From the NCBI GenBank assembly GCA_024402455.1, contig JAKSTS010000028.1:1-21404 (forward strand): 21,404 bases of DNA, given 5' to 3'. Origin of the DNA: Treponemataceae bacterium (lineage in GTDB: Bacteria; Spirochaetota; Spirochaetia; Treponematales; Treponemataceae). Position numbers and translations under genes: made by a program. Below the pieces are notes generated by a model. That model saw only the letters and a list, made by a program, of their open reading frames with translations. It searched no databases and was not told the DNA's origin. This document shows, in pieces, positions 52 through 12,165 of the stretch (its first letter is position 1; every line of letters begins with the position of its first letter).

Positions 52-82
52 GTTAGCGCTCCATCGCGAGCGTCCGCCTAAC
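52..82. repeat. short inverted repeat at the cassette start
   Basis: The 31 bases run from GTTAGCGCTC to GAGCG...CCTAAC, so GTTAG and GCGCTC at one end can pair with CTAAC and GAGCG at the other. The right end is the attC core site itself (76-82). The hairpin would sit in the leader of the next cassette gene. It may be part of the recombination site or a translational control element; the sequence does not decide. Confidence 0.4.
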
Positions 83-138
83 AATTGGTTGTACCGCAGC
101 GGGCTTGACCCGCTGTCGGCTACGAACCTTTGTTATGC
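76..138 (-). other. attC: integron attC recombination site
   Basis: On the minus strand this 63-bp element begins GCATAAC (R'' box, 138-132) and ends GTTAGGC (R' box, 82-76). GTTAGGC fits the GTTRRRY consensus exactly; GCATAAC differs from RYYYAAC at one position. The halves fold into an imperfect palindrome: boxes GGTTCGTA and TACAACC lie inside the R boxes, and the centre is a perfect stem, AGCGGG/CCCGCT, with loop TCAAG. Size, boxes and imperfect dyad symmetry are those of an attC. The stop codon TAA of the upstream gene (133-135) lies within the R'' box, a usual feature of compact cassettes. Confidence 0.85.
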
Positions 139-522
139 TTTTTTCCAACTGTCTAATAAATAATAAAATGGAAATGTTCCAAAATGAGCAAATCCAACTT
201 TTATTTTTTTTCTAGATTCATCTCTCAAAGGAAATGGTGAACGTAAACTTACAACAGATGCAACATCATCATCTGATAATTCTTTATTTAAGCCCCACGA
301 AAGTGGATAAACAATTAGTAAAACGCAGGGGACTAAAATAACAAATAATGGATTTGCTCTGTAAAATCCATATCCAACAATTAATATAAAAATTATGTTG
401 TCAATAAATGATAGTATTTTATGCAATATTCTCATTTTATTTGTAAATTTATATAAAATAAATAATATCAGATTAAGAAATACATATAATATAATTATGC
501 TAAAAAAAGTATCTTCTGACAT
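133..522 (-). CDS. small membrane protein of unknown function (cassette gene 2)
   Basis: 129 residues with no family I recognise. The first 80 residues are strongly hydrophobic and look like three membrane segments (about 6-26, 36-56 and 58-76), followed by a charged tail of about 50 residues with KKIKV, a short aromatic stretch (FGTFPFYYLLD) and a C-terminal WKKA. The ATG follows directly on the stop codon of the RDD gene (TAAATG) and has no strong ribosome binding site, so its translation is probably coupled to that gene. The stop codon falls inside the attC R'' box. An RDD protein and a small membrane protein acquired as one unit may act together, but their job is unknown. Confidence 0.7.
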   Translation of the reverse strand: MSEDTFFSIIILYVFLNLILFILYKFTNKMRILHKILSFIDNIIFILIVGYGFYRANPLFVILVPCVLLIVYPLSWGLNKELSDDDVASVVSLRSPFPLRDESRKKIKVGFAHFGTFPFYYLLDSWKKA

Positions 523-903
523 TTATTTTTCTACCACATCAGTTTTTGCTATTCTATCACCAATTCTTTTATTACTTACAATAAAAATAATAATTTCAAT
601 CCAGTTAAGAAGCAATGGTATATTTCTTAATAATCTTTGAGAAAAAGTTGCTGATTCTTTTGTTTCAGAATTAACTATTTTTAATTTTAAAATTCTTTTA
701 CCTACGCTTCCTTTGCTTGGTAAATCCCGTAGAATTAAATATATAAAAGCTATAAATGTTGATAATAATGTTCGCAATATGATATCAGAAGGTTGGTTCC
801 CTTTTATAGTTGGATAAATTACCAATAACCAAAATGGTATGTTCATAATCATTGCTGTAATTATAAAATCAATAAAGAAAGCTCCAATTCTTTTACTATT
901 CAT
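523..903 (-). CDS. RDD family membrane protein (cassette gene 1)
   Basis: 126 residues from the chosen start MNSKRIGAFF. The RDD hallmarks are present: an Arg and an Asp in the first helix (RIGAFFIDFII), GKRILKLKIV between the second and third membrane segments, and GDRIAKTDVV near the C-terminus. Three membrane segments are visible. RDD proteins are small membrane proteins, mostly of unknown role, with some linked to ion or solute transport. An in-frame ATG at 939 would add 12 residues, but 903 is preferred because GGAGAAAAG lies just before it and because 939 overlaps the cassette core site. The gene is first in its cassette and probably relies on a promoter upstream of the array. Confidence 0.85.
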   Translation of the reverse strand: MNSKRIGAFFIDFIITAMIMNIPFWLLVIYPTIKGNQPSDIILRTLLSTFIAFIYLILRDLPSKGSVGKRILKLKIVNSETKESATFSQRLLRNIPLLLNWIEIIIFIVSNKRIGDRIAKTDVVEK

Positions 904-916
904 TCTTTTCTCCTTA

Positions 917-932
917 CCACGCCAGTGGCGTG
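917..932. repeat. short perfect hairpin in the RDD gene leader
   Basis: CACGCCA and TGGCGTG pair perfectly around one central base, just upstream of the ribosome binding site and just inside the cassette end (936-942). The next cassette also has an inverted repeat at its start (52-82). The hairpin could modulate translation; nothing further can be said. Confidence 0.45.
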
Positions 933-935
933 TGA

Positions 936-942
936 GCATAAC
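936..942 (-). other. upstream cassette boundary (R' core site; possible attI end)
   Basis: Minus strand GTTATGC, the exact complement of the R'' box of the cassette's own attC. The sequence upstream (943-1080) contains no RYYYAAC partner; in fact there is no AAC on the minus strand there. So this boundary does not belong to a second attC. It is best read as the end of an attI site, or a scar of one, with this cassette in first position. Confidence 0.5.
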
Positions 943-1051
943 ATATATTATACGTATCCTGCATAAAATTTTTATCCCGACAAATCTGTCCGTATAAGAA
1001 TCACATCAAGATGCTTTCTTCTATTATAGCACATAACATCATGATTTTATA
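943..1051 (-). promoter_or_regulatory. possible promoters for the cassette array
   Basis: Two -10 hexamers of exact TATAAT type face the cassettes. One is at 1028-1023, with an extended -10 TG (TGCTATAAT) and a weak -35 (TATAAA) at 1051-1046. The other is at 952-947. Either could drive the RDD gene at 903, as the Pc promoter does in integrons. The -35 elements are poor and there is no experimental support. The segment also has partial symmetry between GTATCC...ATAAAAT and ATTTTATACGGATAC. Confidence 0.35.
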
Positions 1052-1342
1052 CGGATACTCCTAATCTCACATCCTGTCCAAGGGACTGATTACTCCGCCG
1101 GTTCCTTTATTCGCGCCGACGGGTTCAATACCCCGACGCTCTGCGTCGTATGAAGGGTATTGAACCTGGAGTGCAATTTCCTTTTAGAACGACGATACCT
1201 CGAACGCTCTGCGTCGAGGTTCGTCATTCAAATTTAAAATTTGAGGTACTGGAGGGGCGCACAGCGCGTTTGGAGCGAAGCGGAAACTCATGCAAACAAC
1301 CGCAGGTCGTAAAACAGTGTTATACATTTTTGCTGTGCATCA
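1052..1342. repeat. intergenic region with three palindromic repeats
   Basis: About 290 bases without a convincing gene. Three inverted repeats follow one another. At 1122-1166, GGTTCAATACCC pairs with GGGTATTGAACC and encloses CGACGC-TCT-GCGTCG. At 1191-1225, GACGA-ACCTCG pairs with CGAGGT-TCGTC around ACGC-TCT-GCGT. At 1228-1244, TCAAATTT and AAATTTGA surround one A. The first two share the core CGC-TCT-GCGTCG. The segment from 1105 to 1290 is richer in GC than its surroundings. These look like members of a dispersed extragenic palindrome family. No integrase gene fragment was found here. Confidence 0.55.
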
Positions 1343-3202
1343 TTACTGCTGCTTTTTCTTTTTTGCACCGGCTGGGGCAGCTGGTTTTAACACGTTTATC
1401 AAATCTTTTCTTCCGGCCAAAGTTAAAGCTTCTTTTACCAAAGCCTGGTTTTCATATCTGTTGAATTGCAATAATGCCCTCTGCAAGCGGCGTTCGTGAG
1501 CACCTTTTGCAACATAAACTTCTTCAAAACTACCATCAGGATTCTGTTTGCGAGGGTTCAAGCCAGTCCAATACATACAGGTAGAAAGTCCCCCCGGAGT
1601 TGGATAGAAATCCTGAACCTGATCTGGAACAAAGCCTGTTTTCTTTAAATACAAAGCAACTTCAACAGCTTCTTTTAAGCCAGCACCCGGATGGGAACAA
1701 ATATAATATGGAACAAGGAACTGATTTTTACCCTCTTCCTTGTTTATTTTTTCATATTCCTTTGCAAACTCTTCGTATAACTCATGGTTAGACTTTCTCA
1801 TCAGGCGGAGAACTTTATTATCAGCATGTTCTGGAGCAACCTTAAGCTGACCAGAAATATGGTGTTTTACAAGCTCGTGGAAAAATGTTTTATCTTTATC
1901 CATCATCAGATAATCAAAGCGAATACCAGACCGAATAAAAACTTTCTTTACACCCGGCAAAGCTCGAAGTTTCCTAAGCAATTCAACATATTCTGTATGG
2001 TCTACTTCCACATTTTTACAAGGATTAGAACCAAGACAATCCTTGTTAGGACAAGCGCCACGTTCCTTTTGCATAGGACAAGCATCTTTTCTGAAATTTG
2101 CAGTAGGACCACCAACATCATGAATATAGCCCTTAAACTGAGGATCCTTAATCATCTGTTTTGCTTCAGCAATCAAGCTGTCTTGACTTCTGGCCTGAAT
2201 ACGGCGTCCTTGATGAAAACTGATGGCACAAAAACTACAGGCACCAAAGCATCCTCTGACAGACTGCAAAGAAAACTGAACTTCGCTTAAAGCAGGAATT
2301 CCAGTTTTTCCATTTTCAGCAGGCTTGTCGTACATTGGATGCCATCTTCTTGTAAAAGGCATGGCATAAACCGCATCAAATTCTTCAGTAGACAAAGGTA
2401 AAGCAGGAGGTTCCTGAACTATAAAACGAGTATCAACAGGTTCAACCAAAGGCCTGCCATTAATTGCATCTGTATTCTGTTCCTGAATCAAATAACTTTT
2501 TGCAAACATTTTTTTGCTTTCAGGAGTATCTTTAGAAACTTCAGCAAAGGAAGGTAAACGGATTGCTTTTTCCGGAAGCTCCTCTTCCTTGCTTGTATAC
2601 CACACAGTTCCATGCACTCCGCGAATTTCCCGAACAGGAACACCAGCCTTCAATAGACCTGCAATTTCCAGAATAGAATGCTCTCCCATTCCGTACATCA
2701 ATAAATCTGCTTTAGAATCCAGAAGCAAAGAACGGCGGATTGTATTGGACCAGTAATCATAATGACTTGTACGGCGCAAACTTGCTTCAATACCACCAAT
2801 ACAAATTGCTACACCTTTGTAAGCCTGGCGAATTGCAGAACAATAAGTCATAATCGCCCTGTCAGGTCTGTGTCCTGCAACCCCACCATGGGCATACGCA
2901 TCCTCTGATCTTGGCTTATTGTTTGCAGTATAGTTTGAAACCATGGAATCCATAGCACCGCCACTAACCAAAAATCCCAGTTTAGGACGGCCAAATTCAC
3001 GGAATACCTCAATGTTTTTCCAGTCAGGCTGAGCAAGAAGCCCTACAGTATAGCCGTTAGTTTCAAGCAAGCGGCACAAAAGCGCAGCGGCAAAAGACGG
3101 ATGATCAACATATCCATCCCCACTTACAAAAACAAAATCAACTTCTTCAATACCGCGTTTTTTCAAATCTTCTTTACAAACTGGAACGTATGAATTCTTC
3201 AT
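1343..3202 (-). CDS. ygiQ: YgiQ family radical SAM protein
   Basis: 619 residues. The radical SAM cluster motif CxxxCxxC is seen as CFGACSFC at 318-325 and should bind the 4Fe-4S cluster that cleaves S-adenosylmethionine. The N-terminal 300 residues hold the YgiQ-specific region (SGDGYVDHPSFAAALL, CIGGIEASLRR, GMGEHS). The C-terminal half contains VRGCFG, HDVGGPTANF, a further Cys-rich stretch (about 375-395, CPMQKERGACPNKDC), and VAPEH and QDFYPTPGG blocks. The ending is Lys-rich. The enzyme's substrate is not established in any organism I can name. The ATG has no Shine-Dalgarno sequence, but TATAGT lies 11 bases before it, so the message may be leaderless or nearly so. The gene is on the same strand as the integron cassettes but is ordinary chromosomal sequence. 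Confidence 0.93.
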   Translation of the reverse strand: MKNSYVPVCKEDLKKRGIEEVDFVFVSGDGYVDHPSFAAALLCRLLETNGYTVGLLAQPDWKNIEVFREFGRPKLGFLVSGGAMDSMVSNYTANNKPRSEDAYAHGGVAGHRPDRAIMTYCSAIRQAYKGVAICIGGIEASLRRTSHYDYWSNTIRRSLLLDSKADLLMYGMGEHSILEIAGLLKAGVPVREIRGVHGTVWYTSKEEELPEKAIRLPSFAEVSKDTPESKKMFAKSYLIQEQNTDAINGRPLVEPVDTRFIVQEPPALPLSTEEFDAVYAMPFTRRWHPMYDKPAENGKTGIPALSEVQFSLQSVRGCFGACSFCAISFHQGRRIQARSQDSLIAEAKQMIKDPQFKGYIHDVGGPTANFRKDACPMQKERGACPNKDCLGSNPCKNVEVDHTEYVELLRKLRALPGVKKVFIRSGIRFDYLMMDKDKTFFHELVKHHISGQLKVAPEHADNKVLRLMRKSNHELYEEFAKEYEKINKEEGKNQFLVPYYICSHPGAGLKEAVEVALYLKKTGFVPDQVQDFYPTPGGLSTCMYWTGLNPRKQNPDGSFEEVYVAKGAHERRLQRALLQFNRYENQALVKEALTLAGRKDLINVLKPAAPAGAKKKKQQ

Positions 3203-11320: not shown

Positions 11321-11698
11321 TTATATCCAAAAAGAGTTGAAGTCAAGGGTAGTAATTCTTCTGATATTCCTAATGCATCAAAAAGACAAACACCTGACCA
11401 AAGTGCACTACATAAATTAGCGAAGGAAGCTGCCGGGATACCAAAATCAGCACAATTTACAAAATACAAATTTGTCTTTGATGGTTCAACTGAAAACAGA
11501 ATGGTCTATGAATTCAATGTGGGTGGAAAGAAAAAATACATAATTGAACATGCTGAAGATAAATATGGACGTGGAAAGCATTTTCATGGAGCTAAAGATA
11601 AAGTTCTCTCTAACGGGAAAATACAAACGCCTTATGAGAAGGTAAGGTATAAGCAGTATGAAGGACATTTTCCAGAAGACATTAATGGATATAATTAA
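11321..11698 (+). pseudogene. headless C-terminal domain of a polymorphic-toxin-like protein (tip 2)
   Basis: About 125 codons open after a TAA at 11318, again with no start at the beginning; the first in-frame ATG is at 11501 and would cut the domain. It carries the same junction motif as tip 1, KRQTPDQSALHKLAKEA, followed by an unrelated tip: FVFDGSTENRMVYEF, KKYIIEHAEDKYGRG, KHFHGAKDK, and QYEGHFPEDINGYN at the end. Shared junction plus divergent tip is how polymorphic-toxin cassettes are built. It is followed after 14 bases by another small gene. The enzymatic class is unknown; the conserved His and Asp/Glu suggest a nuclease, but that is a guess. Confidence 0.55.
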
Positions 11699-11712
11699 GG
11701 AGAAACTAAAAA

Positions 11713-12165
11713 ATGGACAGAACAAAATTGATTGAAGAAGCACAGATAAGAAATAAACGGTTAAGACTCTGTAAAAAATGGTGTGCTTATGGAATAGAAA
11801 TATCTATTGATGATTTTTTAGATCCTAAAATAATTGGATTAGGTTACGTTTTTCCTTTACTAGATAATTTTGATGCACAAGAGAAATGCATAGTATGTCC
11901 AATAAATTGTGGTTTAGGGGATTTTATTGAACAAGTAAACAAAAATATTTCCAAAGATATGGAATATTTATTTTTTGAAGAACAATCATCAGAAATAGGT
12001 GCAATAAAAATATCTGGAAATATCATTTTGAACAATATTGATTTTATAATCAAGACTTCTCCATATTTTAATAATGGGAACAATATATGTATTTTCTCAG
12101 CAGATTTAAAAAAAGGTGTTTGTTTATGGCGAAGTGAATATGATACAAGAATTTATGTTTGGTAA
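11713..12165 (+). CDS. putative immunity protein of tip 2
   Basis: 150 residues, soluble, AT-rich codons (many AAA, ATA, TTA), with four Cys in the first 75 residues (LRLCKKWCAYG, KCIVCPINCG). A good ribosome binding site, AAGGAGA, lies eight bases before the ATG. Position directly after tip 2 suggests it is the cognate immunity gene. I do not recognise the family. Unlike the tips it has an intact start and stop, so it could still be made if transcribed, and would protect against a toxin delivered by neighbours. Confidence 0.65.
   Translation: MDRTKLIEEAQIRNKRLRLCKKWCAYGIEISIDDFLDPKIIGLGYVFPLLDNFDAQEKCIVCPINCGLGDFIEQVNKNISKDMEYLFFEEQSSEIGAIKISGNIILNNIDFIIKTSPYFNNGNNICIFSADLKKGVCLWRSEYDTRIYVW

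Follow-up and report, generated by a model that had tools for sequence, protein, structure and literature searches.

A probable Treponema chromosomal integron head that keeps attI and gene cassettes behind a 12-codon remnant of intI

The window, i.e. the whole stretch of 21,404 nucleotides that was analysed, carries near its left end a two-gene unit encoding a 129-aa protein and an RDD-family membrane protein. This unit is followed by an attI-like region, a short remnant of an integrase gene, a dispersed repeat and the gene of a ygiQ-type radical SAM protein, which is the chromosomal neighbour upstream of the platform and which we take to be ygiQ (Table 1). The sequence-only reading had described positions 76..942 as an integron gene cassette. 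The cassette stood, with its extent refined by the crossover at 942/941. An Rfam scan of the window at the gathering threshold returned nothing. Further to the right (11501-12165), a short ORF of 65 aa with a Tox-HNH-EHHH toxin domain precedes the gene of a YxiF-family protein; the pair may be what remains of a toxin tip together with its immunity gene.

Table 1. Positions of the features at the left end of the window, with their basis
Feature	Position	Strand	Basis or remark
Apparent start of second cassette	1-81	minus	starts at R' crossover; leader hairpin 57-72; ORF from near 47, cut by window end
attC site (by sequence)	76-138	minus	R'' 132-138 and R' 76-82; covariance model, rule-based scan
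Gene cassette 1, 860 bp	82-941	minus	attI crossover to attC crossover; G|TT at 942/941 and 82/81
129-aa ORF	133-522	minus	stop codon inside R''
RDD-family membrane protein	523-903	minus	PF06271, E 4.5e-12 for the ORF called from 939
Cassette 1 leader hairpin	918-932	minus	CACGCC-ACT-GGCGTG; offset 9 from crossover
attI region (by sequence)	936-1066	minus	R1 model, alignment with relatives
attI R site and crossover	936-959	minus	936-941 already part of the cassette
attI site 2	986-1000	minus	alignment
-10 TATAAT (probable Pc)	within 1021-1028	minus	alignment
attI inverted site 1	1045-1060	minus	alignment
intI scar, last 12 codons and stop	1067-1105	minus	GTGGVISPLDRM and stop; BLAST, alignment with relatives
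Dispersed double-hairpin repeat, ~125 bp	1106-1230		adjoins the intI scar; boundaries from 16 copies
ygiQ-type radical SAM protein	1343-3202	minus	PF08497, PF04055, PF11842; chromosomal neighbour upstream of platform

The RDD gene likely starts at ATG 903, behind AAGGAG (910-915), rather than at the 939 of the ORF caller. An RDD protein 59% identical to that of the window was found in T. zioleckii (L118), and the DNA similarity between the two (520-943) ends at the crossover, where T. zioleckii has the R' of an attC; the genome search flagged one stop codon within the T. zioleckii match. Relatives of the protein occurred in 14 of the 196 sampled Treponema genomes that formed our survey set (E 1e-10). 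Three RDD neighbourhoods were examined: one had an attC ~3 kb off and the other two contained neither attC nor attI at E 0.01. Thus, the family is not confined to cassettes and the idea of a cassette-only protein was rejected. The 129-aa ORF had no Pfam match at E 0.001, and its sequence suggests that the product is probably a membrane protein.

The cassette had been recognised by a 63-bp imperfect palindrome with R''/R' boxes GCATAAC and GTTAGGC, a gene stop codon within R'' and an upstream boundary complementary to that box. These elements were confirmed on the minus strand: R'' (138-132) and R' (82-76) flank a nearly perfect hairpin, the stop codon of the 129-aa ORF falls within R'', and GTTATGC (936-942) is the exact reverse complement of R''. 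The predicted fold has -21.0 kcal/mol on the cassette-coding strand versus -19.6 on the other. In a strict rule-based scan, the minus strand yielded no site other than this one, and the plus strand yielded it together with three weakly folded ones; a laxer scan added three weak candidates. We have then applied an attC covariance model (R2) trained on 42 sites of relatives with the window left out, in which 9 of 15 pairs show at least one pairing-preserving change on both sides. The window site scored 80.8 bits with an E-value, rough as all those of R2, of 2.4e-14 (0.71 Mb, 54 sources searched), and this check, which the sequence-only reading had proposed, excluded chance. The reversed-sequence control with a profile of the R2 alignment (2.49 Mb) gave a single match, at E 5.6. 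Of the 63 bases of the window site, 62 are identical in a T. zioleckii attC (L121:4413-4475). Judged by these comparisons, the site is an attC of the type found in the Treponema lineage, and it is the one complete attC of the window, which stops 75 bases past it.

Positions 1-81, left of the attC crossover, appear to begin a second cassette, since they resemble cassette starts in two other loci (L118 and L129), with the similarity extending past the attC. Both cassettes of the window open with a leader hairpin at offset 9. A short hairpin of this kind marks Treponema cassette starts, at a constant distance of 9 bases past the crossover and ahead of the ribosome-binding site, its loop often being ACT or GCACTG and its stem varying. 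Hairpins with a stem of at least 5 were present in 49/56 cassettes first after attI and 89/120 cassettes next after attC, compared with ~10% of shuffles; 46 of the 49 and 67 of the 89 were at offset 9.

The right-hand boundary of cassette 1 is the attI crossover with the intI scar behind it, a feature absent from the earlier reading. It was located with R1, a sequence-only model of attI and the intI 3' end built from 22 relatives, the window being left out. The window gave a single match at E up to 10 (937-1112, 89 bits, E 4.1e-27), and the reversed-sequence control, run with a profile of the R1 alignment, a single one at E 3.5. An R1 match was present in 55 of the 57 genomes in which IntI exceeds the cut-off, and so the model tracks integrons. 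The same region of the window aligns end to end with a locus in which a full-length IntI precedes attI (L160). On this basis, it would qualify as an attI site with a G|TT crossover. Three related motifs of the TTATACGGATA type lie within it, which by analogy we take to be putative IntI-binding sites, and between two of them there is a TATAAT preceded by TG and aligned with relatives. A promoter scan of the minus strand found no sigma-70-type hexamer pair, the -10 alone being supported, by the alignment. We infer promoter activity inside attI.

The BLAST search matched window 1038-1112 to the intI 3' end and the sequence following it in T. zioleckii, T. saccharophilum and a third genome (G003). 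When aligned, the minus strand reads GTGGVISPLDRM and a stop codon, then the whole interval between intI and the first cassette; the IntI C-terminus of T. zioleckii reads GAGGVLSPLDRL before its stop. Identification of the scar rests on the DNA alignment, because tblastn with IntI queries misses the 12 codons by themselves at E 0.05 (the best single IntI match to the scar, in a window-only search, had E 0.011). The scar lies directly upstream of attI, and intI was directed towards attI, in the same direction as the cassettes. Beyond it, the window contained no IntI match of meaningful E-value. The earlier statement that no integrase accompanies the cassette thus holds within the window, where 12 codons and a stop are all of intI that stands beside attI.

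The scar adjoins a repeat that is dispersed in the genus. Among 16 aligned copies (L261-L276), 12 start with TTTATTCG, all have ATTCG there, and most end near GATT. On the minus strand, the repeat of the window ends in GAATAAA (1106-1112), which is also present at this point of intI in L160. The stretch 1095-1345 found matches in 38/196 genomes (E 1e-5); since two of these (G127 and G181) match 1244-1286 only, the repeat itself occurs in 36. At least 23 of these 36 had two or more matches, with as a rule three candidates per genome being scored. The simplest reading would be that intI was deleted through the repeat, with a 6-7 bp overlap; a junction so rich in repeats could also be an assembly join.

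We have compared the surroundings of ygiQ in 80 loci of relatives. The RDD protein was found in none (tblastn, E up to 1), and the 129-aa protein had one weak match (L038, E 0.01, tblastn). The covariance model detected no attC downstream of ygiQ in the 80 loci, and an attC 2.5-3.6 kb on its 5' side in two (L017, strong, 75.4 bits; L042, weak, 30.9 bits). The stronger (L017 88-152, from another Treponema) lies ~3.5 kb 5' of ygiQ. Rule-based scanning of the same loci yielded weak candidates only and overlooked one real attC. R1 (1.32 Mb, E up to 0.01) had one match, so that attI follows ygiQ in 1/80 loci: in L067 (11517-11659), attI lies directly downstream of ygiQ, oriented as in the window and with a different cassette start. 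This locus belongs to a more distant Spirochaetaceae bacterium and its contig ends within the first cassette. With attI in 1/80 and no downstream attC, a shared ygiQ-integron location was rejected. Likewise, no ancestral gene order can be inferred from the ygiQ neighbours, as a gene that we presume to be NFACT-like comes next in 1/75 loci.

Taken together, the attC, the cassette boundaries, the attI homology, the intI scar and the repeat at the junction make it very probable that the locus represents the head of a chromosomal integron of Treponema that lost intI by deletion and kept attI and the cassettes. The earlier suggestion of an integron cassette in a treponeme other than T. denticola is supported. 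That suggestion had left the choice between an integron array and an integrase-less attC cluster; the integron stands, and the scar together with the complete attI rules out a bare cluster, pointing to an integron that lost its integrase. IntI is also present in related genomes, passing TIGR02249 in 4/13 near relatives and 57/196 genomes of the genus, contrary to the absence that would have refuted the earlier reading. As long as the integrase was present, IntI would have inserted cassettes at the G|TT of attI. A deletion of intI ending at the dispersed repeat would then have left its last 12 codons, giving the order 12-codon scar, complete attI with a probable promoter, cassette 1 with its attC, and the start of cassette 2. 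Such a platform would be unable to move cassettes by itself; its first cassettes would still be expressed from the promoter inside attI, and an IntI from another source in the cell could act on it. This would be its present-day function.

Similar states were frequent in the survey. The curated cut-off of TIGR02249 yielded IntI in the 57 genomes mentioned above (a few of these genes being cut or with a stop, e.g. in G196) and a limit of E 1e-40 in 68/196, while attI was found in 112/196 (R1, E up to 0.001) and attC in 132/196 (R2, E up to 1e-4). The 112 attI genomes comprised 55 with IntI over the cut-off, 9 with a weaker match only and 48 without a match at E 1e-40, a limit that misses short intI remnants (G073, G127 and G178, for example, have remnants beside attI); incomplete assemblies will explain some of the 48. 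An attC was present in 43 of these 48. When 62 attI were placed in their neighbourhoods, 6 followed an intact IntI, 30 a C-terminal remnant, and the other 26, window included, no intI detectable by tblastn. The remnants range from 225 to 19 residues, although three start less than 200 bases from the contig start and may be cut by it (L215, L238 and L248), with under 600 bases for L216, L241 and L242. A fixed cut point in intI was therefore rejected.

We have also investigated where these attI lie relative to attC. Of the 56 attI not accompanied by an intact intI, 29 had their first attC (within 4 kb) on the same strand and 0 on the opposite one; 17 had none, and 10 ran off the contig. No attC was found upstream of attI in the 47 loci with 1.5 kb of upstream sequence (E 1e-3), and hence these attI head arrays. 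Three upstream sequences had suggested attI placed inside arrays after an attC, which was rejected on the same count; weak upstream attC fragments occur in three of the 47, in L220 at a distance of 62 bp. An isolated attI followed by a cassette-like start (L223 6529-6670, genome G036) has no attC within 4 kb downstream nor in its genome, and is perhaps a fixed promoter-gene unit. T. saccharophilum DSM 2985 has two attI loci (L117 and L130), one behind a broken intI remnant with two stops and one behind a 19-residue remnant, and 23 attC matches in its genome.

Whether such platforms are live or relics was approached by comparing first cassettes behind 59 attI with a crossover, from 37 relatives and the window. 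In 109 attI pairs, the 120 bases before the crossover were at least 78% identical. Past the leader (bases 25-150), identity in the same pairs was 0.41-0.66, compared with a mean of 0.51 and a maximum of 0.65 in 500 shuffles; a single pair, from different genomes, exceeded that maximum (L180 with L238). The window attI is in none of the 109 pairs. Within-genome pairs numbered 22, in seven genomes, with 78-97% before the crossover and 0.42-0.58 after it. Thirteen of them came from G178, which has seven attI matches and may be a mixture of strains; the case does not rest on it. Three other pairs are more secure: that of T. saccharophilum (L117 and L130), in the interior of 191- and 105-kb contigs, showed 97% before and 0.50 after the crossover, and two pairs with both attI on one contig gave 92% and 0.42 (G177) and 93% and 0.51 (G089). 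As the cassettes differ from the crossover on, either they were exchanged at these attI once these had been duplicated, or each copy acquired its cassettes independently while intI was still present.

The putative IntI-binding motifs showed little or no decay, in a set whose detection threshold favours intact sites. Identity to the motif consensus beside intact, truncated and no intI was 0.80, 0.83 and 0.81 for the R site, 0.80, 0.86 and 0.78 for site 2, and 0.74, 0.72 and 0.69 for site 1; the spacers gave 0.56, 0.52 and 0.55. The aligned R end is lacking in two truncated loci (L167 and L169) and in 14 intact-intI loci, where attI is divergent, interrupted or cut by the locus end.

A variant of integrase loss in place, which does not exclude it, is that a true integron with its intI persists elsewhere in the genome and that attI, scar and cassettes reached ygiQ from it by duplication or relocation. 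At least 13 of the 55 genomes with attI and IntI over the cut-off have an additional attI that is distant or on a different contig (G018, G045, G059, G075, G101, G115, G119, G120, G123, G129, G161, G167 and G177), and hence service in trans would be possible there. In T. zioleckii, intI is preceded by a gene that is presumably RtcB-like, and ygiQ is followed by the NFACT-like gene. Such a transfer is quite possible, though less likely than not: the gene after ygiQ varies, NFACT-like being next in the single locus of 75 noted above, and IntI is not matched at E 1e-40 in 48 of the 112 genomes with attI, so that intI may also often be lost with no second copy present. We consider it very unlikely that a distant IntI inserted the cassette at a non-canonical attG-type site downstream of ygiQ, where no integron ever stood. 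The lack of intI in the window and the occurrence of ygiQ in L067 and the window only, among the attI and intI loci examined, would be compatible with this, and cassette insertion at attG sites is mentioned in the literature (PMC12444791, PMC12901181); however, the flank upstream of the crossover is no arbitrary genomic site, being a full attI behind which stands the intI 3' end. That the palindrome and boundaries arose by chance or from an unrelated repeat (REP or terminator), as another hairpin repeat nearby (1106-1230) might suggest, is negligible given the attC and attI models, the exact crossovers, the 62/63 identity to the attC of a relative with intact IntI, and reversed controls without a match below E 3.5.

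As a single locus, this integron head is of a known kind and well preserved. Earlier work has described integrons of Treponema, with their orientation and with the loss of the integrase in T. phagedenis (PMC3607928). As in the window, intI of T. denticola, T. vincentii, T. succinifaciens and T. brennaborense points towards attI with the cassettes in the same direction, and the attC of T. denticola and T. vincentii, 63-68 bp, are of the size class found here (PMC3607928); in contrast to those integrons, only 12 codons of intI are left here and ygiQ precedes the locus. The remnant integron of T. phagedenis has attC without intI and so shares the loss of the integrase with retention of cassettes, whereas attI and an intI scar, defined here, are not described for it in the part of that report available to us (PMC3607928), and similar states recur in the genus. 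CALINs, as defined with IntegronFinder 2.0, likewise have attC, at least two of them, without a neighbouring integrase (PMC9024848) but differ from the window in its complete attI. In Xanthomonas, integrons at ilvD have deleted or truncated intI, so that intI was inactivated repeatedly and arrays were kept, as here, and CALINs occur at other loci too; dispersed attI are not described in the available portion of that study (PMC12444791). An early survey counted nearly one third of intI genes as pseudogenes, many ascribed to within-genome duplication (PMC2426708). These broken copies, sometimes beside an intact intI in one genome, resemble the Treponema case, but that account, as far as available, treats intI rather than any attI and cassettes retained behind it (PMC2426708). 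Delta-attI-type cassettes, known in class 1 and 2 integrons, are also extra copies of attI sequence; there, pieces of attI replace attC inside arrays (PMC12901181), whereas the Treponema attI examined here head arrays.

Among the literature matches listed (orphan or multiple attI, secondary sites, Treponema attI), none described dispersed attI platforms without intact intI, and such a set therefore appears undescribed. The usual picture of an integron is one integrase and one attI. IntegronFinder limits attI detection to class 1 integrons (PMC9024848), and since attI is not searchable outside class 1, integrase-less arrays are filed as decayed attC clusters. With a Treponema attI profile, arrays without intact intI are often seen to keep a complete attI with a promoter-like -10, several per genome being possible. 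In the window, the final state after loss of the integrase can be read clearly from the anatomy, as the deletion junction is preserved. We tentatively put forward that many Treponema have a distributed integron, in which several scattered attI-promoter platforms without intact integrase, the window being one, would each remain active in capturing and expressing a set of cassettes of its own, with one integrase or transient ones acting in trans. With the attI profile, one can test whether these arrays are relics devoid of activity, serve as fixed platforms for expression, or are acted on by an integrase in trans.
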